A stretch of 64,000 nt of DNA, from NCBI GenBank assembly GCA_944389925.1, contig CALXOD010000051.1, forward strand, positions 62,001-126,000, given 5' to 3'. Shown here one piece after another: positions 5,983 through 22,176 of the stretch (the first letter of the stretch is position 1; every line of letters starts with the position of its first letter). Below the pieces are notes generated by a model. That model saw nothing but the letters and a program-made list of their open reading frames with translations. It made no database searches and was not told the origin of the DNA. Both the position numbers and the translations under genes were made by a program. Origin of the DNA: an uncultured Victivallaceae bacterium. GTDB taxonomy: Bacteria; Verrucomicrobiota; Lentisphaeria; Victivallales; Victivallaceae.

Positions 5983-7293
5983 TTACAAATACGCCCCGAA
6001 TGCGCGCAGCTTCTCCCGTCCCGCCACGCCGTCCAATTTCGTCGGCATCGTCCCCGCCGTCACTGCCATCGCCGCGGCCATCCCCGCCGCTTGTCCAATC
6101 GAACAGACCGGCGGCATCACCCGCATGGAACTGTGCAGCGCATGATCCACGGAAATACAACGGCTTCCGATCAGGAGATTGTCGCATCCTTCCGCTACAA
6201 TGCAGCCATAGGGAATTTCGTACCAGTCGTCCGGCGGCAACCGACGGATCATCGTACCGGAACCCTTCGGATTGTGAATGTCCACGTCATAACTCACCCG
6301 GGCAATCGCATCCGGAAATTTCTCCGCCCGGTCAAACGCCGTTACCGTCAAATAACGTCGTCCCCGAATCCGACGCGATTCCCGCACCCCGATATGATGC
6401 GCGATCGAATGTACCGCGGCCCGTTCGAACCCCGGTACATATTCCCGCAGAAAGGCCAGGTATTCCCGCAGCTGCCGTCGCGCGTCGATTTCCGCCTCCG
6501 ACAACTCCCGCGCGTTCAACGCGCTCTTCAACACAACCCGGGTAGTGTTAAAATGCATCACATCCGGCTCCAGATCCTCAAACATCAATACGTTTTCCCG
6601 CAGACACCGGATTTTTCCATCCGCCTTTGCCCGGTCGTACAGGGCGTTGACCTCCGCCCGCGACGGCATCCGGGACCGATCCACTCCGCTTAATTTGAAA
6701 CACAGCGTCATCGGCTGGCAGTTTCCCTCTTCGTCACCATATTCAAAAGGCACTCCCGCCAATGCCGCCAGATCCCCGTCACCGGTTCCATCCACAAATA
6801 CTTTGCCGCGCACTGCGCTCAACCCGTCTTTACCGGACAGAATGACTTCGGTAAGCCGTTCTTCCGTGCGTCGGACGTCAAACAATGTATGATGGTACAT
6901 CATCCGTACACCGGCAGCAAGGCAAAGGTCTTCCACCGCCAGCATGGCCAGATTTTTGGAAATCATACGTTCGCTGCTGTTTTCCACACGATTTTCTGCG
7001 TGCGGCGCCACTTTGCCCGGCAGATACCGGCGCATGGCGTCAATCCACTCCCCGTAAAGCGGTCGATCCAGCGGCAGACCATGAGAATGACTGCACATGA
7101 ACGGAGTCACCTCCCCCACCGACGCCATCCCACCGGCAAAACCATAACGCTCGATCAATACGACGTCCGCCCCGTTGCGCGCAGCTGTCACAGCCGCAGC
7201 GAATCCTCCCGGCCCGGCGCCACACACCACCACATCCGCTTCCGCCGTCACGGGAACTTCCCGCTTCAGCTCGTAAGGAATCGACTCACTCAT
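5983..7293 (-). CDS. FAD-dependent oxidoreductase coupled to glgB
   Basis: A complete 436-residue flavoprotein related to the one at the left window edge. It has VCGAGPGGFAAAVTAARNGA near residues 21-40, the family motif FVDGTGDGDLAALAG, and a C-terminal LLIGSRCISVDHALHSS stretch with conserved small residues near the flavin. The ATG at 7293 follows AGGAGG with a rather long 12-base gap and overlaps the glgB stop by 8 bases, so translation is probably coupled. Being the last gene of a glycogen operon is unexpected, and no link to glycogen chemistry is known to me. It lacks a signal peptide. The substrate is not predictable. Confidence 0.85.
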   Translation of the reverse strand: MSESIPYELKREVPVTAEADVVVCGAGPGGFAAAVTAARNGADVVLIERYGFAGGMASVGEVTPFMCSHSHGLPLDRPLYGEWIDAMRRYLPGKVAPHAENRVENSSERMISKNLAMLAVEDLCLAAGVRMMYHHTLFDVRRTEERLTEVILSGKDGLSAVRGKVFVDGTGDGDLAALAGVPFEYGDEEGNCQPMTLCFKLSGVDRSRMPSRAEVNALYDRAKADGKIRCLRENVLMFEDLEPDVMHFNTTRVVLKSALNARELSEAEIDARRQLREYLAFLREYVPGFERAAVHSIAHHIGVRESRRIRGRRYLTVTAFDRAEKFPDAIARVSYDVDIHNPKGSGTMIRRLPPDDWYEIPYGCIVAEGCDNLLIGSRCISVDHALHSSMRVMPPVCSIGQAAGMAAAMAVTAGTMPTKLDGVAGREKLRAFGAYL

Positions 7294-9340
7294 TTTTCCC
7301 GTTTGCCTCCTGTTGGACGCACGTCTTCTGCAACACCAACGCAGTTCGACAGGGCAAATACAACCGCACCGCCTGGTGGGACCTGCCCTGCCCGTCCGGC
7401 ACCGCGGAAGTCCCATAGGTCATCGCGCAGTCAATCCGGTCAAAACCGCCGAAAGCCCCGGCATCACTGCTCAAAACAATCCGATAGTTCCCGGGCGGAA
7501 ACTCCAATTCACAATCAGCAAAAGAATCCGTCGGATGAAAATTAAATACGAAAAAATATCCCGCCCGCTCAAAAGCTAGAATTTTGCGCCCCTCATCACA
7601 AACCATCCGTTGCGGCGCACAGTCGTAGAAATCCCCCTTCCCCCGCAGCAGCGCCAGCATCGCCCGGTCAAACGCCTCCAGCTGTCCGTAACGCAGCGTT
7701 TCGTCCTCCGCCAGAGACCACTGCCGTCGGGCGTAGGCATACGACCACCCGTTCCCTTCCCGCGGGAAATCAATCCACTCCGGATGTCCGAATTCGTTCC
7801 CCATGAAATTCAAATAGCCATGCCCCGCCGTCGCCGCCGTCGCCAGGCGCGTCATCTTATGCAGCGCCACCGCCCGATCCACCCGGCCATCGCCGGAATC
7901 ACGGCGCATGGCATCGTACATCGCCGCCCCCGCCAGACGGAAAATCGCCGTCTGACCGCCAACAATGGCCTGATCATGACATTCCACATAGCTGACCGTT
8001 CGCTCATCCGGGCGCCGATTGGTCAATTCGTAGTACATATACCCCATGTTCCACGCCTCGTCCGGCTGATCGAACAGCTTGAACCACATATCGGTCACGC
8101 CCATCGCCATACGGTAATCAAACCCCACGCCCCCCTCCCGAAGCGGTACGGCCAATCCGGGCATGCCGCTGACGTCCTCCGCCACCGTCATGGCATCGGA
8201 GCGCACGGCATGAATCACCTCGTTTGCCAAAGAAAGATACGTCAATGCCTCTTCATCCACCTCATCCCCGAAATAATCAGCATACCCGGCAAAAGCCCGC
8301 CCCAATCCGTGGTGCCGGTACAGCATACTGGTCACGCCATCGAACCGGTACCCATCCACCCGATATTCGTCCAGCCAGAAACGGCAGTTGGAAAGCAGAA
8401 AATGCAACACTTCCGTCTTTCCGTAATCGAAGCAAAGCGAATCCCACGCCCGGTGCTCCCCCCGCTCCCCGGCGTGAAAATAAGTGCTGCGTTCGCCATC
8501 GAATCGCCCCAGTCCTTCCACCTCGTTACGTACCGCGTGGGAATGCACCAGATCCATAATCACCCGCAACCCCAGCCCGTGTGCCGCATCCACCAGTTCC
8601 CGGAAATCATCCGGCGTTCCGAAACGTCCTGCTATGGAAAAAAAGTTGGCGACATGATACCCAAACGAACCGTAATACGGATGCCCCATGATTGCCATCA
8701 ACTGTACCGTATTATAACCGGACCGGGCAATGCGAGGAAGCACCTTTTCCCGGTATTCGCGAAACGTCCCGACTCCGGCCCGCTCCTGGGCCATGCCGAC
8801 ATGCGACTCGTAAATCAACGGCGCCGGAAACGACGCCGGTGACTCATAACGGAACCGGTACGGCTGTTCCGGTCGCCAGACCCGCGCAGAAAAAATGCCG
8901 CTCTGTTCGTCCTGCACCACATAACGCGCATAACTCGGCAGCCGTTCCCCCCTTCCCCCCGGCCACTCCATCAACAGCCGGTAATGCATCCCATGCCATA
9001 ACCGTTCCGCACTCAGTCGAATCTCCCACTCGCCCCGATTATTCAACCGACGCAGTGCAAAGTCCGGCAATGCCTTCCATCCGGACATCTCGCCGATCAG
9101 CGTAATCGCCTCGGCATGGGGTGCCCACTCTCGGAACACCCACTCCCCGTCCCGGAAATGTAATCCGTAATATTCATGTCCGGAAGCAAATTCCGCCAGC
9201 GTCTCCGGCCCCCCGCGCAACAGCCGCCTTCGAACGGCTGCCACCGCCAGACGGCGACGTTCCAGTTCGCCGGCATAAGGTGCCAGATATGGGTCCCGTC
9301 CAAAAGGTTCCGGCCGATTGTCGCGTGTCGGAAATTTCAT
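7286..9340 (-). CDS. glgB: 1,4-alpha-glucan branching enzyme, eukaryotic-type GH13
   Basis: This enzyme (684 residues) makes the alpha-1,6 branches of glycogen. An N-terminal CBM48 region (FREWAPHAEAITLIGEMSGW) precedes the GH13 barrel. The barrel has GSFGYHVANFFSIAGRFG, DGYRFDGVTSM with the nucleophile at about Asp334, VAEDVSGMP with the acid/base at about Glu388, and VECHDQAIVGGQT with the third acid at about Asp456. The DGVTSM and HDQA signatures resemble plant and animal branching enzymes more than the E. coli type. The ATG at 9340 is preferred because GAGGAG lies just upstream; a GTG at 9352 overlapping the glgA stop is the alternative. It is translated tightly with glgA and the FAD gene. 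Confidence 0.93.
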   Translation of the reverse strand: MKFPTRDNRPEPFGRDPYLAPYAGELERRRLAVAAVRRRLLRGGPETLAEFASGHEYYGLHFRDGEWVFREWAPHAEAITLIGEMSGWKALPDFALRRLNNRGEWEIRLSAERLWHGMHYRLLMEWPGGRGERLPSYARYVVQDEQSGIFSARVWRPEQPYRFRYESPASFPAPLIYESHVGMAQERAGVGTFREYREKVLPRIARSGYNTVQLMAIMGHPYYGSFGYHVANFFSIAGRFGTPDDFRELVDAAHGLGLRVIMDLVHSHAVRNEVEGLGRFDGERSTYFHAGERGEHRAWDSLCFDYGKTEVLHFLLSNCRFWLDEYRVDGYRFDGVTSMLYRHHGLGRAFAGYADYFGDEVDEEALTYLSLANEVIHAVRSDAMTVAEDVSGMPGLAVPLREGGVGFDYRMAMGVTDMWFKLFDQPDEAWNMGYMYYELTNRRPDERTVSYVECHDQAIVGGQTAIFRLAGAAMYDAMRRDSGDGRVDRAVALHKMTRLATAATAGHGYLNFMGNEFGHPEWIDFPREGNGWSYAYARRQWSLAEDETLRYGQLEAFDRAMLALLRGKGDFYDCAPQRMVCDEGRKILAFERAGYFFVFNFHPTDSFADCELEFPPGNYRIVLSSDAGAFGGFDRIDCAMTYGTSAVPDGQGRSHQAVRLYLPCRTALVLQKTCVQQEANGKNE

Positions 9341-9348
9341 ACCTCTCC

Positions 9349-10863
9349 TCACGGCAGCAGCGGGCGGTCCAGCATGGATTCATAAATCCGGATATAGGCC
9401 TCCGCCGTCACATCGTGGTTGAACCGTTCTCGCGCCTGCCGCATCACCCGCTGTAAAACCGGAACTTTGACCTCGGCCGGCAGATCATAAAAACGCATGG
9501 CTTCATCCATCGCCCAGAACAACCCGCCGGAATCATACGTTTCAAACCGGAATCCATTCCCGGTTCCCGCAGCCAAATTCAGCGGCTCCACCGTATCGTG
9601 CAGCCCGCCGGTATCATGCACCACCGGCAGCGTACCGTAATATTGCCCGTTCATCTGCGGCAATCCGCATGGTTCAAACCGCGACGGCACCAGAATGAAA
9701 TCCGCACCGGCAAACCCCAGATGCGACAATTCCTCGTCAAAATCCCGCACAACCACCCGGCCACGCAAATCATGAAATGCCGCAATCTGCTGAAACACCG
9801 GCTGATAACTGCCGTTTGCCACAATCGCAATCTGCAGATTCCGGGAATAATATTTGCTGACCACGTCAAAGAGAATTTCCGCCAGCAGCTGGCATCCTTT
9901 CTGCAATGGATCCAGCCGCGACGGCCAGAAGAAGATCGGCGCCTCCGGACATACCTCCAGCCCCAGGCGTTGCTGCAGCAGTGCCTTGTTCGCCGCCTTC
10001 CCCTCCACCACGGTTTCCGGCGTATAACGATGGGTCAGATAAGGATCCTTTTCCGGATCCAGCGATTCATCCGGCGCATTGAGAATCCCGCTGGCACAAC
10101 CGGCATGAGCCTTGGCAGCGATTTCCCGGCGGATCTGATCCGGAATGAAATCATGCCGCCCCTCCACAATCTCCCGCAGAAACGTCGGACTGACCGTATT
10201 GATGAAATGCGCCGCAAAAATCCCACTGGTCAAAAAATCCACCGGATTCGTGGACCGGCTTTCCTCATAATTATAGGGAATCCGCTGGTAATAGAGATAC
10301 TTCCAGAATTCCGCCGCATCAATTCCACGATCCTCGATACGATCCAGCGTACTCTTCTGGGTATGAATATTATGCACGGTGAACAAACAGGGAATTTCCA
10401 TCCGGCGCGCCATGGCCGGAATCAATCCCGTCATCCAGTCGTTGCAGTGAATCAGGTCCGGGCGCACATGCGGGATAATATTGTTCAGCACCTCTCGTTG
10501 AAAGGCCATCGCCGAAAGAAAGCTGTCATCGTCATAACTGCCGTAGACCGAGTCCCGGTAATAGAAAATCCGATCCTCCGCCAGATGCACCCTGCCGGTA
10601 GACAGATTGCTGAGATAGACCCGCAACTCGTTGCTGATCAGCTTTCCGACATCCACATGAAACATGCGCCGATAGTGCGGCAACGCCACATGCACATCCG
10701 CGCCCTGACGAAACAACGCCGCCACCAGTGACGCCGATACGTCGGCCAGTCCCCCCGCCTTGGCTTTGAGAGCATTGGCCATATTGCCCATGCCCTCCGG
10801 CAGATAGGTGATCTCCGGCGTAACAATCAAAATGCGCGGTTTCTTCTTGGACGACTTTCCCAT
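9349..10863 (-). CDS. glgA: Glycogen synthase, GT5
   Basis: A 504-residue glycosyltransferase that extends alpha-1,4-glucan from a nucleotide-glucose. The N-terminal KAGGLADVSASL motif is the GT5 donor-binding signature, and HCNDWMTGLIPAM and FTVHNIHTQ follow. The C-terminal Rossmann half has SRFEPCGLPQMNGQYYGTLP and DTGGLHDTVEP, which contain the conserved Glu of the GT-B fold. The ATG at 10863 has AAAGGAG at 7 bases. No glgC (ADP-glucose pyrophosphorylase) is present in this operon, so the donor must be made by a gene elsewhere. An intercistronic hairpin separates it from glgP. Confidence 0.95.
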   Translation of the reverse strand: MGKSSKKKPRILIVTPEITYLPEGMGNMANALKAKAGGLADVSASLVAALFRQGADVHVALPHYRRMFHVDVGKLISNELRVYLSNLSTGRVHLAEDRIFYYRDSVYGSYDDDSFLSAMAFQREVLNNIIPHVRPDLIHCNDWMTGLIPAMARRMEIPCLFTVHNIHTQKSTLDRIEDRGIDAAEFWKYLYYQRIPYNYEESRSTNPVDFLTSGIFAAHFINTVSPTFLREIVEGRHDFIPDQIRREIAAKAHAGCASGILNAPDESLDPEKDPYLTHRYTPETVVEGKAANKALLQQRLGLEVCPEAPIFFWPSRLDPLQKGCQLLAEILFDVVSKYYSRNLQIAIVANGSYQPVFQQIAAFHDLRGRVVVRDFDEELSHLGFAGADFILVPSRFEPCGLPQMNGQYYGTLPVVHDTGGLHDTVEPLNLAAGTGNGFRFETYDSGGLFWAMDEAMRFYDLPAEVKVPVLQRVMRQARERFNHDVTAEAYIRIYESMLDRPLLP

Positions 10864-10945: not shown

Positions 10946-13483
10946 TCAATCCTTCGGCCAGCACATAAATCCGGGTACGCTGTTATCCCATTCATGGCCG
11001 CTCGGAGTAATCCGCGCCGTCAAACCGAAACGTCCGGCGGTATTGCAGGCCAGTTCACATTCATACCGGTAATTGCCGTTGCCGAGATCTTCCGCCAACT
11101 GCATCGGTTCCGCTTTGCCACGGATGATCTCATTATGAATATTGACCTGTCCGTAATAGGTTTCCACCTCGACTTCTTCCGGACGCAATTCTCCCAGGCC
11201 GGCTTTGACGGAGAGCCGGAACCGGTCTCCCACATGGATATCGTCCAGCACCATCGACACCTCCGGACGCTCCACGTAAAGTTTGTCGAAATTATTCACC
11301 AGACGCCATTTGCGTTCCACCAGCGCCTTGGCTTCGGCAGCATCATTCGCCAGCAGCCGCTGATAGTCATCGCGGGCAGGACGATAATACTTTTCCTCGT
11401 ATTCCCGTACCATCCGGGCACTGGAGAAATGACCGAGCGCCATAACGATCGACTCCTTCATCCGCCGGATCCAGCGTTGCGGCAGATCGCCGCCACCTCG
11501 TTCGTAGAAGCAGGGAATGATTTCGTTCTCCAGCAGGCCGAAGAGCGCCTGAGCTTCGTAATTATCGACATCCTCGGTATCGGTGTAATTTTCGTTATTG
11601 GGAATGGCCCAGCCGCATTCGGGGGTATAAGCCTCGGCCCACCAGCCGTCGAGAATGCTGCAGTTGATTACACCGTTGATGGCCGCCTTCATTCCGGAAG
11701 TCCCGCTGGCCTCCTGCGGACGACGTGGCGTATTGAGCCAGACGTCCACTCCCTGCACCAGCGAGCGCGCCAGCGCAATGTCGTAATCCTCCAGAAACAC
11801 CAGACGGTCCTGCACCCCGTGCTGCCGGGCAAACTGAACCAGTTCCTGGATCAGGCGCTTTCCGCCTTCATCAGCCGGGTGTGCTTTGCCGGAAAAGACG
11901 AACTGGACCGGATGCTGTTTGTTTTTCAGCAAAGCCACCAGGCGGTCGGGATAACGCAGCAGCAACGTACCGCGCTTGTATGTGGCGAACCGCCGCGCAA
12001 AACCGATGGTCAGCACATCGGGATCCAGCAGTGTCTTCCCATTGACATTGCCTTGTCCGATGTCGGCAGCAAAGGCGGAACTGTGCTGTACGACGTGCCG
12101 GGCTTTGCGGATCATCGACTGCCGGCACAGTTCATGCGCCATCCACAATTCTTCATCGGGGATGTTGAACACCGCCTGGCAAAGTTGTGCCGGATCCGGA
12201 TTCTGCAGCCAGCGGGCATTCAGGTAACGGTCGAAAATCACCCGAATCCGAGGCGAGATCCAGGAGGGGATATGCACCCCGTTCGTAATATGTCCGATCG
12301 GAATTTCCGCAACAGACCGCTGCGGCCAGAGCATTTTCCACATTTCCCGGGCCACTTCGCCGTGCAGCCGGCTGACGCCGTTGCTGTAGTTGGCCATGCG
12401 CAACCCGAGCACCGTCATGGACATTTCGGTACTATGGTCGCGTTCGCTGATCGGCACGCCCCAGCGGATGATACGGTCCACATCCATTTGCGCATTCCGG
12501 GCGTAGGTTTCGAGGTAAGGCCGCACTAACGCTATATCAAAGACTTCATTACCCGCCGGCACCGGGGTGTGAGTGGTGAAAACATTGGTTCGCCACACGA
12601 TTTCCAATGCGGTTTCCGGATCAAGCCCTTTCTGCACGAGTTCTTCCAGCCGGGCCAATGACATGAAGGCCGCATGTCCTTCGTTCATGTGGCAGACCGC
12701 CGGCGTGCAGCCAAGTGCAACCAGGGCTTTGTAACCGCCGATGCCGAGCAGCAGTTCCTGATGCAACCGCATGCGGCGGTCTCCTCCGTACAGCCGCCAG
12801 GTGACTTCGCGCAGTTCAGGCGGATTCTGAGGAATCTCCGTATCCAGCAACACCAGGGGGATATTCCCCACCCACAGAATCCAGACCGCGGCGAAGAGAT
12901 CCCGGTCGATCAGCTTAATGCTGATGGTTACGCTCCGTCCCTGGGCATCCCGCGCGCGTACCAGAGGCATATTATGGATTTCGTTTTCGGGATAACGTTC
13001 GATCTGCCAGCCATTGCGATCCAGCATCTGCCGGAAATACCCCTGCCGGTACAGCAGTCCGACCGCCACCAGCGGCAGTTTCATATCCGACGCGGCTTTC
13101 AGATGGTCTCCGGACAACACTCCAAGCCCGCCGGAAAAAATCCGCACGCTTTCATGAATGCCGAATTCCATCGAAAAATAGGCGATCCGCCGATCAGCAA
13201 AATTTTCCTTCTCCGGCATGGTTCGTTCAAATTCCGCCTGCACCGTGCGCAGCTGCCGCAGATAAGCGGAATCCCGTGCCAGCTCCTCCAGGCGACTCTG
13301 CGACACCTGCATCAGAAAACGACGACTGTTGCCCTCCACCTCCCGCCACAAATTCGGGTTGATGCGAACAAAAAGTTCAATCGCAAGCGGATGCCAGCAC
13401 CACCACATATTGTAGGAAAGCCGTTCCAGAAATTTCAGCTCGGCGGGAATGCGTGGAGCCACATTGAATAACTTAACACTCAT
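10946..13483 (-). CDS. glgP: Alpha-glucan (glycogen) phosphorylase, GT35
   Basis: This PLP enzyme (845 residues) releases glucose-1-phosphate from glycogen. The N-terminal NMWWCWHPLAIELF is typical of the shorter bacterial and archaeal phosphorylase branch. YFSMEFGIHESVRIFSGGLGVLSGDHLKAASD and the HMNEGHAAFM loop follow. Near the C-terminus EASGTSGMKAAINGVIN carries the lysine that binds pyridoxal phosphate, followed by DGWWAEAY. A beta-rich tail of about 100 residues after the catalytic domain is also usual for this branch. The ATG at 13483 has GAGGGA at 7 bases. Its transcript must read through a terminator located just upstream, after the CBM48 gene. Confidence 0.94.
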   Translation of the reverse strand: MSVKLFNVAPRIPAELKFLERLSYNMWWCWHPLAIELFVRINPNLWREVEGNSRRFLMQVSQSRLEELARDSAYLRQLRTVQAEFERTMPEKENFADRRIAYFSMEFGIHESVRIFSGGLGVLSGDHLKAASDMKLPLVAVGLLYRQGYFRQMLDRNGWQIERYPENEIHNMPLVRARDAQGRSVTISIKLIDRDLFAAVWILWVGNIPLVLLDTEIPQNPPELREVTWRLYGGDRRMRLHQELLLGIGGYKALVALGCTPAVCHMNEGHAAFMSLARLEELVQKGLDPETALEIVWRTNVFTTHTPVPAGNEVFDIALVRPYLETYARNAQMDVDRIIRWGVPISERDHSTEMSMTVLGLRMANYSNGVSRLHGEVAREMWKMLWPQRSVAEIPIGHITNGVHIPSWISPRIRVIFDRYLNARWLQNPDPAQLCQAVFNIPDEELWMAHELCRQSMIRKARHVVQHSSAFAADIGQGNVNGKTLLDPDVLTIGFARRFATYKRGTLLLRYPDRLVALLKNKQHPVQFVFSGKAHPADEGGKRLIQELVQFARQHGVQDRLVFLEDYDIALARSLVQGVDVWLNTPRRPQEASGTSGMKAAINGVINCSILDGWWAEAYTPECGWAIPNNENYTDTEDVDNYEAQALFGLLENEIIPCFYERGGGDLPQRWIRRMKESIVMALGHFSSARMVREYEEKYYRPARDDYQRLLANDAAEAKALVERKWRLVNNFDKLYVERPEVSMVLDDIHVGDRFRLSVKAGLGELRPEEVEVETYYGQVNIHNEIIRGKAEPMQLAEDLGNGNYRYECELACNTAGRFGLTARITPSGHEWDNSVPGFMCWPKD

Positions 13484-13522
13484 AATGATGTCCCTCGGGT
13501 TCAAAAATACTGCCTCTGTCAT

Positions 13523-13563
13523 AAAAAAACGGCGCCACGCCGGATTTCCGACGATGGCGCCGT
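13523..13563 (-). terminator. Intrinsic terminator after the CBM48 gene, inside the glg operon
   Basis: On the minus strand a perfect 9-bp stem (ACGGCGCCA/TGGCGCCGT, 17-base loop) is followed directly by seven T. It lies between the CBM48 gene and glgP with only about 40 bp left before the glgP start and no good promoter in that space. It probably reduces rather than blocks expression of glgP, glgA and glgB. Confidence 0.8.
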
Positions 13564-13638
13564 CCGCGCATCTTCACCGCATGCTCCGAATGCCGCCGTC
13601 CGACGTTCTTCCGGCAGCGTCCGTGCTCCGGGAACGAA

Positions 13639-13962
13639 TCACTTCGCTTCCACCTTCAACACGCTGTTCAGCGTACCGAGATCATTGGAAGCAAAACAGG
13701 GATTCGCTTCATCTATACGCCAGTCGCCATCCACTACGAATTTATATTCGTACTCTCCAGGAGGCAACATCAGACAGCCGCGATAAATCCCGTCCCCTTT
13801 ACGGTCCACCAGCGGTTTGGCATCGGGATCCCAGTCATTGAAGGAACCGGCCACTGAAACGTGCTTGCCCACACCGGCGTCGATGACGAATTCCACCCGT
13901 CTGCGCACCGTTGTTCCGCCGGCGGCATCTCTGGTGTTCTGTTTTTTTTCCTTCTTCTCCAT
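13639..13962 (-). CDS. Free-standing CBM48 (isoamylase N-terminal-like) glycogen-binding protein
   Basis: A 107-residue protein that is essentially one CBM48/AMPK-beta glycogen-binding domain. RRVEFVIDAGVGKHVSVAGSFNDWD and GEYEYKFVVDGDWRID, plus the NDLGTLNSVL strand, match the early-set fold with its conserved Trp residues. A charged, Lys-rich first 15 residues precede it. The ATG at 13962 has GGGGGAG four bases upstream. It is the first gene of the glycogen operon and is followed by its own terminator, which would make it the most abundant product. It has no catalytic domain, so it probably binds the glycogen surface or helps place the glg enzymes there; that role is inferred. Confidence 0.85.
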   Translation of the reverse strand: MEKKEKKQNTRDAAGGTTVRRRVEFVIDAGVGKHVSVAGSFNDWDPDAKPLVDRKGDGIYRGCLMLPPGEYEYKFVVDGDWRIDEANPCFASNDLGTLNSVLKVEAK

Positions 13963-14079
13963 GATACTCCCCCTTTTGCTACTGGGGCCCTGTCCGGCGG
14001 CCCCGTCATGTCCGGAGATAATATAATGCAGGAAGAAGTAAAATTCCAGTCGGAAGCATTTTTACATAGCGGGAAAGTG

Positions 14080-15111
14080 CTAACACACATCCAACATGAC
14101 GGAACTCCCGTAATTGCTCAGGGTTCCGCAAAGGGAAAGGTTCCGGGCCCGGGACTCGGGAGAATGAATGCGTCGCAGCAATTCCTCCATCGCCAGCCGC
14201 CCCAGCTCACGCCAGTCGAACGTGACGGTGGGAAATACCGGATAATCCGGATTGATCTGGTGCTTTCCATCCGCTGACAGTACCGGAAAATCCTGTTCCA
14301 ATCGTCGCCCGGTTCTTTCGCAATAAGCACAGGAGGCATAATTGAACCAATCGTCAGAAGTAAAAAAATACCCGCATCCCGGTTGGAAATCATAATTAGC
14401 CGGGGAAATCACATCCACAAATTCCGCCCGGCCCCCCAGATCATTCCAGGCTTGAAAAAACAACCGTCCCCGCTGCCGGTAAATCGGCTTGGGACTGGAA
14501 AAAAGCACCACTCGGTTCACGCCGCGGTTAAGAAAATAGTCCACCGCCTTCTTCGCCGTATCATACAAATCGGCATTGACCGTTGACAAACGCCCTCCAT
14601 AGGAGTTGAGCATCAGCATTCCCACGGCCGGGCATGCGGATTCGAAATCCGCCAGATACCAGTCATACGCACTCAGCAGCAACATTCCGTCGCATTGGCG
14701 GCTGGCTTCTCTGAAAAAATCCGTTGAAACAAACCCGCAATGCCGATCCACCACCGACAATTCAAATCCCGCCGGTTCACCGACATCCCGGGCCCCGAGC
14801 AACGCATGATACATCATGCCACCGCCTGCCGGATTGGCTGACGTCTCCATGAAAACGAAAATCTGCCGCCCACCGTCATTGCGCCGGAGCGGACTGCGGC
14901 GGACAAAGAACCCGTGATTGGGCTTCTGCTCCAGCACACCGTTCTCACACAGCCGTTCGAATGCCCGGTAGGTTGTACCGTAGCTTAACTTGAACTTCGC
15001 AGCAAACCGTCGGACGGAAGGCAACACTTCGCCCGGCGAATATTCCCCGGCCAGAATGCGCGATTCTATATAATCCAGCAACCTGGTCGTTGATATCGGA
15101 CTGCGCCCCAC
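14080..15111 (-). CDS. GntR-type regulator with LacI-like sensor domain (paralogue 1)
   Basis: A 343-residue DNA-binding protein. Residues 1-75 form a GntR winged helix (ILAGEYSPGEVLPSVRRFAA, then LSYGTTYRAFERLCENGVLE). The rest resembles a periplasmic-binding-protein sensor of the LacI/AraR kind: STVNADLYDT, NRVVLFSSPKPIYRQRG, GYFFTSDDWF, and a final FPTVTFDWRELGRLAMEEL. Two close paralogues lie at 21172-22176 and 61926-62969. It starts at a GTG at 15111, with GAGGGG 12 bases upstream. It is the last gene of cassette A, downstream of the jelly-roll protein, so it may be co-transcribed with its targets. The ligand is unknown, probably a sugar. Confidence 0.82.
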   Translation of the reverse strand: MGRSPISTTRLLDYIESRILAGEYSPGEVLPSVRRFAAKFKLSYGTTYRAFERLCENGVLEQKPNHGFFVRRSPLRRNDGGRQIFVFMETSANPAGGGMMYHALLGARDVGEPAGFELSVVDRHCGFVSTDFFREASRQCDGMLLLSAYDWYLADFESACPAVGMLMLNSYGGRLSTVNADLYDTAKKAVDYFLNRGVNRVVLFSSPKPIYRQRGRLFFQAWNDLGGRAEFVDVISPANYDFQPGCGYFFTSDDWFNYASCAYCERTGRRLEQDFPVLSADGKHQINPDYPVFPTVTFDWRELGRLAMEELLRRIHSPESRARNLSLCGTLSNYGSSVMLDVC

Positions 15112-21171: not shown

Positions 21172-22176
21172 TCAAGGCATAATCAGTTTACCGCAAAGAC
21201 TTTGGCTTCTTCCGGAAGACTCTGGATCATTCAAACGGCGGTATAACTCTTCTAATGCCGCCCGGCCGACTTCGCACCAGTCGAGGGCAATGGTGGGAAA
21301 CCGATGATACTCCGGATTAATCAGCCGTTTCCCATCGACCCCGAGGACGAGATGATGCTCGGACAGCGGCACGCCGTTCCGTGCCTTGTACCATTCGGAA
21401 ACCTGCTGCAACATCTGATCGGAAGTGAAAAAATATCCCACACCGGCCTCAAAATTCAATCGTTCTTCCGGCATTCCGGTAATGAGCTCCACTTTTCCCC
21501 CCACAGCTCGGACTTCGTCGCAATAGCGTTGGGCAATCGCCATGAAAATCGGTCGGATACTGGTATACACCACATGCCGCTTGACCACCGCCCGGCCGAA
21601 AAAGTCAAAAGCCTGCATCACCGTATCGTAAATATCGATATTCACCGTGGATACCTGTCCGTTGTAGGCGCGCAGCATCAGAATGCCCGCTGCCGGACAG
21701 GGCAGCTGCATCGACCACATTTTCCAATCGTAACTGCCGATGAAAATCAATCCCGCCACACTGGCGGCCATCTCTCTCACCAGATCCTCGGTCAGCCGGT
21801 CACAATGCACATAGAAAATCTTCAAGGAAATGTTGTGCTCCGCCGCAGCGGAACGGATCCCCAGCAGTGCATGATAACAGAGAAAACCGGAGTTGATCTT
21901 CTCATTGCTCACCTCCAGCACCACACCAACCCGGATGCCGAAATCATCGGCGGCTGGCGGAGCTTTCACAAAAAAACCGTCCCCGAGACGTTTCTCCAGC
22001 CAGCCTTCCGTGCACAGCCGTTCCATCGTCCGGTAAGCGGTCCCATAGCTGAGATCGAACCGTCCTGCCAGGCGTCGTACCGAGGGCAGCAGCTCTCCCG
22101 CCCGAAAAGTTCCGGCCAGAATCCGGGTCTCCAGATATTGAACCAGACGATCCGAATCAGCTTTGCGGCGTCCCAT
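21172..22176 (-). CDS. GntR-type regulator with LacI-like sensor domain (paralogue 2)
   Basis: A 334-residue paralogue of the regulators at 14080 and 61926. The winged helix has TFRAGELLPSVRRLAGRF, LSYGTAYRTMERLCTEGWLE and GDGFFVK. The sensor part keeps the family landmarks: YHALLGIRSA, STVNIDIYDT, GYFFTSDQML, VLGVDGKRLINPEY and FPTIALDWCEVGRAALEEL, ending SLCGKL. The ATG at 22176 overlaps the end of the DUF349 gene by 20 bases, so translation is probably coupled. It lies directly upstream of cassette A, and the phased GGATC array begins 24 bases past its stop codon. I infer that it, or paralogue 1, binds this array. Confidence 0.84.
   Translation of the reverse strand: MGRRKADSDRLVQYLETRILAGTFRAGELLPSVRRLAGRFDLSYGTAYRTMERLCTEGWLEKRLGDGFFVKAPPAADDFGIRVGVVLEVSNEKINSGFLCYHALLGIRSAAAEHNISLKIFYVHCDRLTEDLVREMAASVAGLIFIGSYDWKMWSMQLPCPAAGILMLRAYNGQVSTVNIDIYDTVMQAFDFFGRAVVKRHVVYTSIRPIFMAIAQRYCDEVRAVGGKVELITGMPEERLNFEAGVGYFFTSDQMLQQVSEWYKARNGVPLSEHHLVLGVDGKRLINPEYHRFPTIALDWCEVGRAALEELYRRLNDPESSGRSQSLCGKLIMP

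Follow-up and report, generated by a model that had tools for sequence, protein, structure and literature searches.

We analysed a 64,000-nucleotide stretch of DNA from an uncultured Victivallaceae bacterium (the window, meaning this whole stretch), in which a short gene for a free-standing CBM48 protein, here called the CBM gene, is followed on the same strand by glgP, glgA and glgB (Table 1). The open reading frame of the CBM gene begins with ATG behind GGGGGAG, a ribosome-binding-site-like stretch. For glgP the likely start is the ATG at 13483, which gives the conserved 'MSVKLFNVAPRIP' start, so that the CBM-glgP gap amounts to 155 nt, and 39 nt separate the end of the T-run from this ATG. 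A second ATG in frame, at 13522, lies partly within the end of the T-run and is probably unused, since the matching ATG in the locus of a sister species (L091) runs into a stop after two codons. The assembly of the window genome has 2.8 Mb, is 97% complete and contains one PF16561 protein.

Table 1 Features of the glycogen locus, with positions given in the window
Feature	Position	Strand	Description
GntR-type regulator	14080-15111	-	upstream of the CBM gene, same strand
Promoter-like site	14020-14048	-	TGGAAT (-35, 14043-14048), 17 nt, TATATT (-10, 14020-14025); 5' of the CBM gene
Free-standing AMPK-type CBM48 protein, 107 aa	13639-13962	-	PF16561; residues 1-21 basic tail (+4), the rest CBM fold
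Intrinsic-terminator-like hairpin, including the T7 run	13523-13565	-	17 pairs in the fold, 4-nt loop; -30.8 kcal/mol, z -4.5
glgP, alpha-glucan phosphorylase (DUF3417 + phosphorylase)	10946-13483	-	TIGR02094, 801 bits; PF11897, PF00343; start set by likeness to relatives
glgA, GT5 glycogen synthase, divergent type	9349-10863	-	TIGR02095, 291 bits, below the cut-off of 328; PF08323
glgB, branching enzyme with its own N-terminal CBM48	7286-9352	-	PF02922, PF00128, PF02806

In a profile search, residues 31-106 of the CBM protein matched AMPK1_CBM (PF16561) at 62.6 bits, the gathering cut-off being 26.8, and its best solved relatives by sequence were AMPK beta subunits (E 3e-12). NCBIfam offered no family for the 107-residue protein, only weak GlgB matches far below their cut-offs. 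AlphaFold2 predicted a confident, essentially all-beta domain (mean pLDDT 87.4, with 84 residues at 90 or above), while residues 1-16 stayed below 50. The top match of this model in Foldseek was the glycogen-binding domain of AMPK beta1 (1z0m_C; rmsd 1.5 A, TM 0.90 by target length). The residues F41, W44, L66, G69, Y71, Y73, K74, F75, V76, W81 and N99 do not vary in an alignment of 33 sequences, comprising that of the window and those of 32 of the 58 loci. Presumably the residues of AMPK that match the invariant Lys and Asn have a role there too. By alignment, the counterparts of the invariant W44 and W81 in AMPK beta are Trp100 and Trp133, named as glucan-binding residues in PMC4339375. With the same predicted fold and the same binding tryptophans the likeness to the AMPK beta domain is close, but the protein of the window is free-standing in a bacterial glycogen operon, bears a basic N-terminal tail and has no kinase-binding part in its chain. 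Within the genus, dN/dS of 0.04-0.10 (three pairs) and the position of the differences, 37-40 of 47-53 being in third codon positions, point to clear purifying selection on the gene. Judging by sequence and predicted model, the protein probably binds alpha-glucan, that is glycogen, and its CBM48 domain would do so with the face that the AMPK beta subunit uses. The sequence-only reading of the locus had put a small glycogen-binding protein at the head of the glycogen operon, in front of glgP, glgA and glgB. This observation is right, and stronger than letters alone could tell; the promoter-like site of Table 1 falls just outside the part of the window that it covered (13523-13962).

The basic tail of the glycogen-linked copies is a new observation of this work. 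Its net charge was positive in all 38 scorable copies of this kind (median +5.5), scored from starts that were chosen by rule, so that some tails may be mis-bounded; two more of the 40 copies (L043 and L047) were dropped, as no start could be set. A charge of +4 or more within residues 2-20 was found in 83% of 30 operon copies versus 10% of 221 other ORFs, a comparison set made up of ORFs without signal-like starts. Copies without glycogen linkage, or lying at contig ends where the context is unknown, had a positive tail in 24 of 30 cases (median +4.0), and the basic tail is thus not exclusive to operon copies. In genus g8 the operon copies (L102, L105, L103) have basic tails and the secondary copies of the same genomes (L112, L116, L121) neutral or slightly negative ones. 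The copies of genus g18 (L098, L107), which stand outside the glycogen operon, keep a basic tail. In family f25, elsewhere in the phylum, the tails of three copies (L158, L159, L160) extend to 60-74 residues and are histone-H1-like, rich in Lys, Ala and Pro; these copies were not found adjoining glycogen genes. The short and probably disordered tail of the window protein might make a second contact, either with a polyanion or with a partner protein.

An adaptor of the PTST type is a rival reading. According to PMC4339375, plant PTST is likewise a non-catalytic CBM48 protein of alpha-glucan metabolism, and delivers GBSS to starch; by analogy, the small protein might carry GlgP or GlgA to glycogen in trans, with its ratio to the enzymes being unimportant. 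It fits such a role that GlgA and GlgP have no Pfam CBM hit, GlgB being the one that has it. We nevertheless hold the adaptor to be unlikely: no sign of a coiled coil for enzyme docking, as PTST would lead one to expect, was seen in the predicted structure of the window protein, where the low-confidence tail shows no helix in residues 1-20 and the domain is essentially all-beta.

The surroundings of the CBM gene bear on the same question. Besides the window, 40 neighbourhoods were taken from 59 hit rows, and 20 places in 19 genomes from the hits across the phylum. Among 37 genomes of the family, CBM was found in 31 and GlgP in 31; 30 genomes have both, five neither, and two only one of them. 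Of these two mismatches, G013 has a partial GlgP match (residues 324-856) and G010 is an 83% complete genome. Of the 31 genomes with CBM, 27 have it immediately 5' of glgP; in L078-L089, no CBM match reached the threshold of this survey. In genus g18 (G019, G031) the sole copy found comes immediately after a large ORF, which we take to resemble clpB. A sample of 240 genomes from the phylum yielded matches at E 1e-12 or better in 88, a count that includes multidomain proteins. Eight of the 20 phylum places adjoin glycogen genes: six have the CBM gene directly before glgA (all in family f10), one before glgB (G115) and one before glgP-glgA-glgB, while the other 12 are away from glycogen genes, some of them near contig ends. 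In both loci tested for it (L150, L169) the gene upstream is that of a glycogen debranching enzyme. The placement directly before glgA or glgB speaks for an adaptor, but the neighbouring partner gene differs between families, which speaks against it. Free-standing CBM48 genes are also found in various settings away from the glycogen operon (L112, L116, L121, L122, L125, L128, L037-L039), in one case (L038) adjoining a gene of tetrapyrrole-methylase type.

Between the CBM gene and glgP the window contains a GC-rich hairpin with a run of seven T. In the stem, 14 pairs precede this run and the three outer ones are formed with its first three T; none of 200 shuffled sequences folded as well. Judged by its letters the element has the form of an intrinsic terminator, a stable GC-rich hairpin followed directly by a T-run, and the strong stem which the sequence-only reading had described between the CBM gene and the enzyme genes is borne out. 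A cruder scan over 8.5 kb gave five terminator-like sites against 9.9 in shuffles and three promoter-like sites against 4.4; it counted just 5 pairs of this hairpin, the evidence for which comes from folding and from the comparison of gaps. As a strong hairpin sits just before the enzyme genes, and the gene upstream of it codes for a protein that combines a glucan-binding-type domain with a basic tail, one might think of a conditional attenuator. An antiterminator, or the CBM protein itself sensing free glycogen via its basic tail, would then act on the hairpin and so switch glgPAB on or off. We consider such a switch highly improbable, as neither the minimum-energy nor the centroid fold of 13490-13638 contained a competing helix and no Rfam family matched in the window at its gathering score.

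For the comparison of relatives we looked in each gap for a single hairpin of up to 46 nt with at least 6 pairs, -9 kcal/mol or lower and 5 or more T among the 7 positions that follow. Such an element was present in 20 of 30 CBM-glgP gaps versus 47 of 600 shuffled CBM-glgP gaps, with related genomes each counted separately and weak hairpins (L103, L127, L129, L043) included among the 20. It was found in one of 27 glgP-glgA gaps and in none of 27 glgA-glgB gaps; these control gaps within the operon are shorter, and therefore the shuffles are the fairer control. Outside the operon it was seen in 8 of 26 stretches 3' of glgB and in 4 of 29 stretches 5' of CBM. L104 was left out of the CBM-glgP scan, no start having been chosen for it, and L032-L036 were not counted, being copies of G002, G001, G011, G027 and G004. 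The hairpin is present in 10 of the 13 scanned genera of the family (weakly in g4). The 10 of 30 loci where it is missing belong to g3, g7, g16, two f2 genomes, one genome each of g6 and g8, and L040; in other families, the gap between CBM and the glycogen gene was scanned at 8 loci, and the hairpin was found in none. The hairpin is hence a feature of much of the family and not of the gene everywhere. Its stem is nearly constant within genera (for example GGCGCCA in the genus of the window, ACTCCGG in g17, CCCGG in g5, CCGGAAGCC in g11) and not homologous between them, so that, with its position recurring, the feature is kept while its sequence turns over. That the stems of different genera are unrelated is a further point against the regulated attenuator, and a recurring hairpin would uncouple the level of an adaptor from that of its client.

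Promoter-like sites were sought by a weight scan of sigma70 type, with p against shuffles; promoters of other types are outside its reach. In front of the CBM gene, sites at p<0.05 were found in 12 of 31 loci, the common form being TTGAAA or TTGACA, 16-17 nt and TATATT; in other genera than that of the window, TATATT sites lie 29-106 nt upstream of the CBM start. The site of the window is by itself no better than chance (p 0.16); it is conserved in two sister species (L090, p 0.09; L091, p 0.01) as TGGA(A/C)T, 17 nt, TATATT. After the hairpin, a site at p<0.05 was found in one of 18 scorable loci, two of the 20 being too short to score, and the stretch after the window hairpin gave no sigma70-like site (p 0.65). 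The one locus is L108 (genome G023), in which a consensus TTGACA-17-TATATT, between CBM and glgP, begins where the T-run of the terminator ends; judging from this site, G023 may drive glgPAB separately. A related TATATT site follows the hairpin in the sister genome G006 (L106) at p 0.19, and a further site, in L101, is borderline (p 0.055). The distance from the stem end to the start of glgP is 29-44 nt in eight loci, where a promoter beyond the hairpin would have little space, and 13 nt in the weak L043.

These data bear on a simpler possibility, in which the hairpin just closes the separate transcription unit of the CBM gene and another promoter serves glgPAB; gene order would then be conserved with no ratio set by it. 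The sites in L108 and L106 are of the kind that this would predict, and the window hairpin is very strong, so that read-through may be small. In 17 of the 18 scorable loci, however, a promoter-like site at p<0.05 is missing after the hairpin, at least of the sigma70 type that the scan detects, and the short stretch after the hairpin in eight loci likewise argues against it; we regard such a plain boundary as improbable. With promoter-like sites 5' of CBM and rarely after the hairpin, the enzyme genes are probably reached by read-through, and read-through from the upstream promoter is the simplest account for most genera.

The CBM gene also goes with a particular kind of glycogen pathway. GlgC was not found at E 1e-20 in any of the 25 family genomes searched, that of the window included, and 20 of these have the GlgA of the window type. 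It is present in 12 of 16 members of the order from other families; among these 12, ten have a GlgA match at 31-35% identity to that of the window and two have none at the threshold, and weak CBM matches were seen in three (G042, G046, G052). Two f2 genomes (G044, G051) have a GlgA of the window type (70 and 68% identical) and are also without GlgC. By this pattern CBM belongs with a glycogen module of a distinct kind, and the family seems, by its gene content, to make glycogen without ADP-glucose pyrophosphorylase.

Taken as a mechanism, the arrangement could work as follows. One promoter, in front of the CBM gene, would start transcription, the hairpin would stop most transcripts after this gene, and a minority would read through into glgP-glgA-glgB, with the outcome that the binder is in molar excess over the enzymes, as for a phasin-like protein. 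A comparable arrangement is described in PMC9045158 for ABC importers of cellulolytic Clostridia, in which the gene of the substrate-binding protein (SBP) likewise comes first, and a stem-loop, present in 87.3% of the 5' SBP gaps, stands between it and the downstream genes; internal terminators after the first gene go there with a high transcript level of that gene, and, as in the window hairpin, some of the U-tract may take part in stem pairing. The genes and the phylum are different, and the effect, measured there, is a prediction here.

For the claim of the sequence-only reading that many CBM48 molecules are made per enzyme, the structural part stands: the CBM gene leads the operon, the hairpin separates the enzymes from it, both are kept in relatives, and the pattern of promoter-like sites fits read-through. 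Codon usage gave no support to an excess. With poorly chosen reference genes, the codon proxy ranked CBM higher than the enzymes in 14 of 20 genomes (p 0.06); with better references it did so in 16 of 20 (p 0.002), a result that is biased, as the background was fitted on the enzymes themselves. In an out-of-sample version with most of this bias removed, the direction was reversed, CBM being above the enzymes in 6 of 20 (p 0.02), in three of which 20 (L114, L117 and L101, with small flanks) the codon background still came from the glg enzymes. The references were only seven genes, or five in G004, which we identified from sequence as coding for ribosomal proteins and an elongation factor. The proxy is further limited by the weakness of the codon bias, by the shortness of the CBM genes (about 100 codons) and by the treatment of related genomes as independent. 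Codon usage was dropped as support on the grounds of the out-of-sample test. A molar excess of the CBM protein over the glycogen enzymes is plausible from the gene arrangement and from the analogy with the Clostridia.

On this basis the protein may be a phasin-like, non-catalytic protein of the glycogen surface, made in excess over the enzymes by means of the internal terminator, a reading to which we give an even chance. Both the efficiency of termination at the hairpin and the role at the granule surface are what we infer, and that the protein would form a structural coat of glycogen granules, as the sequence-only reading had it, is likewise a deduction only.

A more far-reaching version would make the protein a granule coat and at the same time, through its basic tail, a tether to the nucleoid or another polyanion, that is a counterpart of PhaF and AlgP, made in excess via the terminator within a GlgC-independent module that replaces the classical pathway in this family; by such a tether the granules would be spaced and shared at division. 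PhaF and AlgP, as presented in PMC3574117 and PMC9239181, are histone-H1-like granule proteins of Pseudomonas with a disordered tail rich in Lys, Ala and Pro, and position PHA and polyphosphate granules, respectively. The relatives of the window protein with Lys/Ala/Pro tails, in family f25, resemble them in this respect. The granule-binding part of PhaF is held there to be probably an amphipathic helix, where here a CBM48 domain is found, and the tail of the window protein is just 21 residues long, N-terminal and modelled with low confidence, long H1-like tails being confined to other families. As a whole we find this extended version distinctly unlikely.

For bacterial glycogen we noticed no surface or positioning protein in the open-licence literature at the level of titles and abstracts. 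PHA and polyphosphate granules have known proteins of this kind in PhaF and AlgP, and the tailed CBM48 protein is a concrete candidate for glycogen, with the conserved hairpin making the idea of stoichiometry testable. As to the regulator gene upstream of the CBM gene, it is one of three related GntR-type regulators in the window; the second (21172-22176, minus strand) and the third (about 61.9-62.9 kb, plus strand) are 42% and 39% identical to it.
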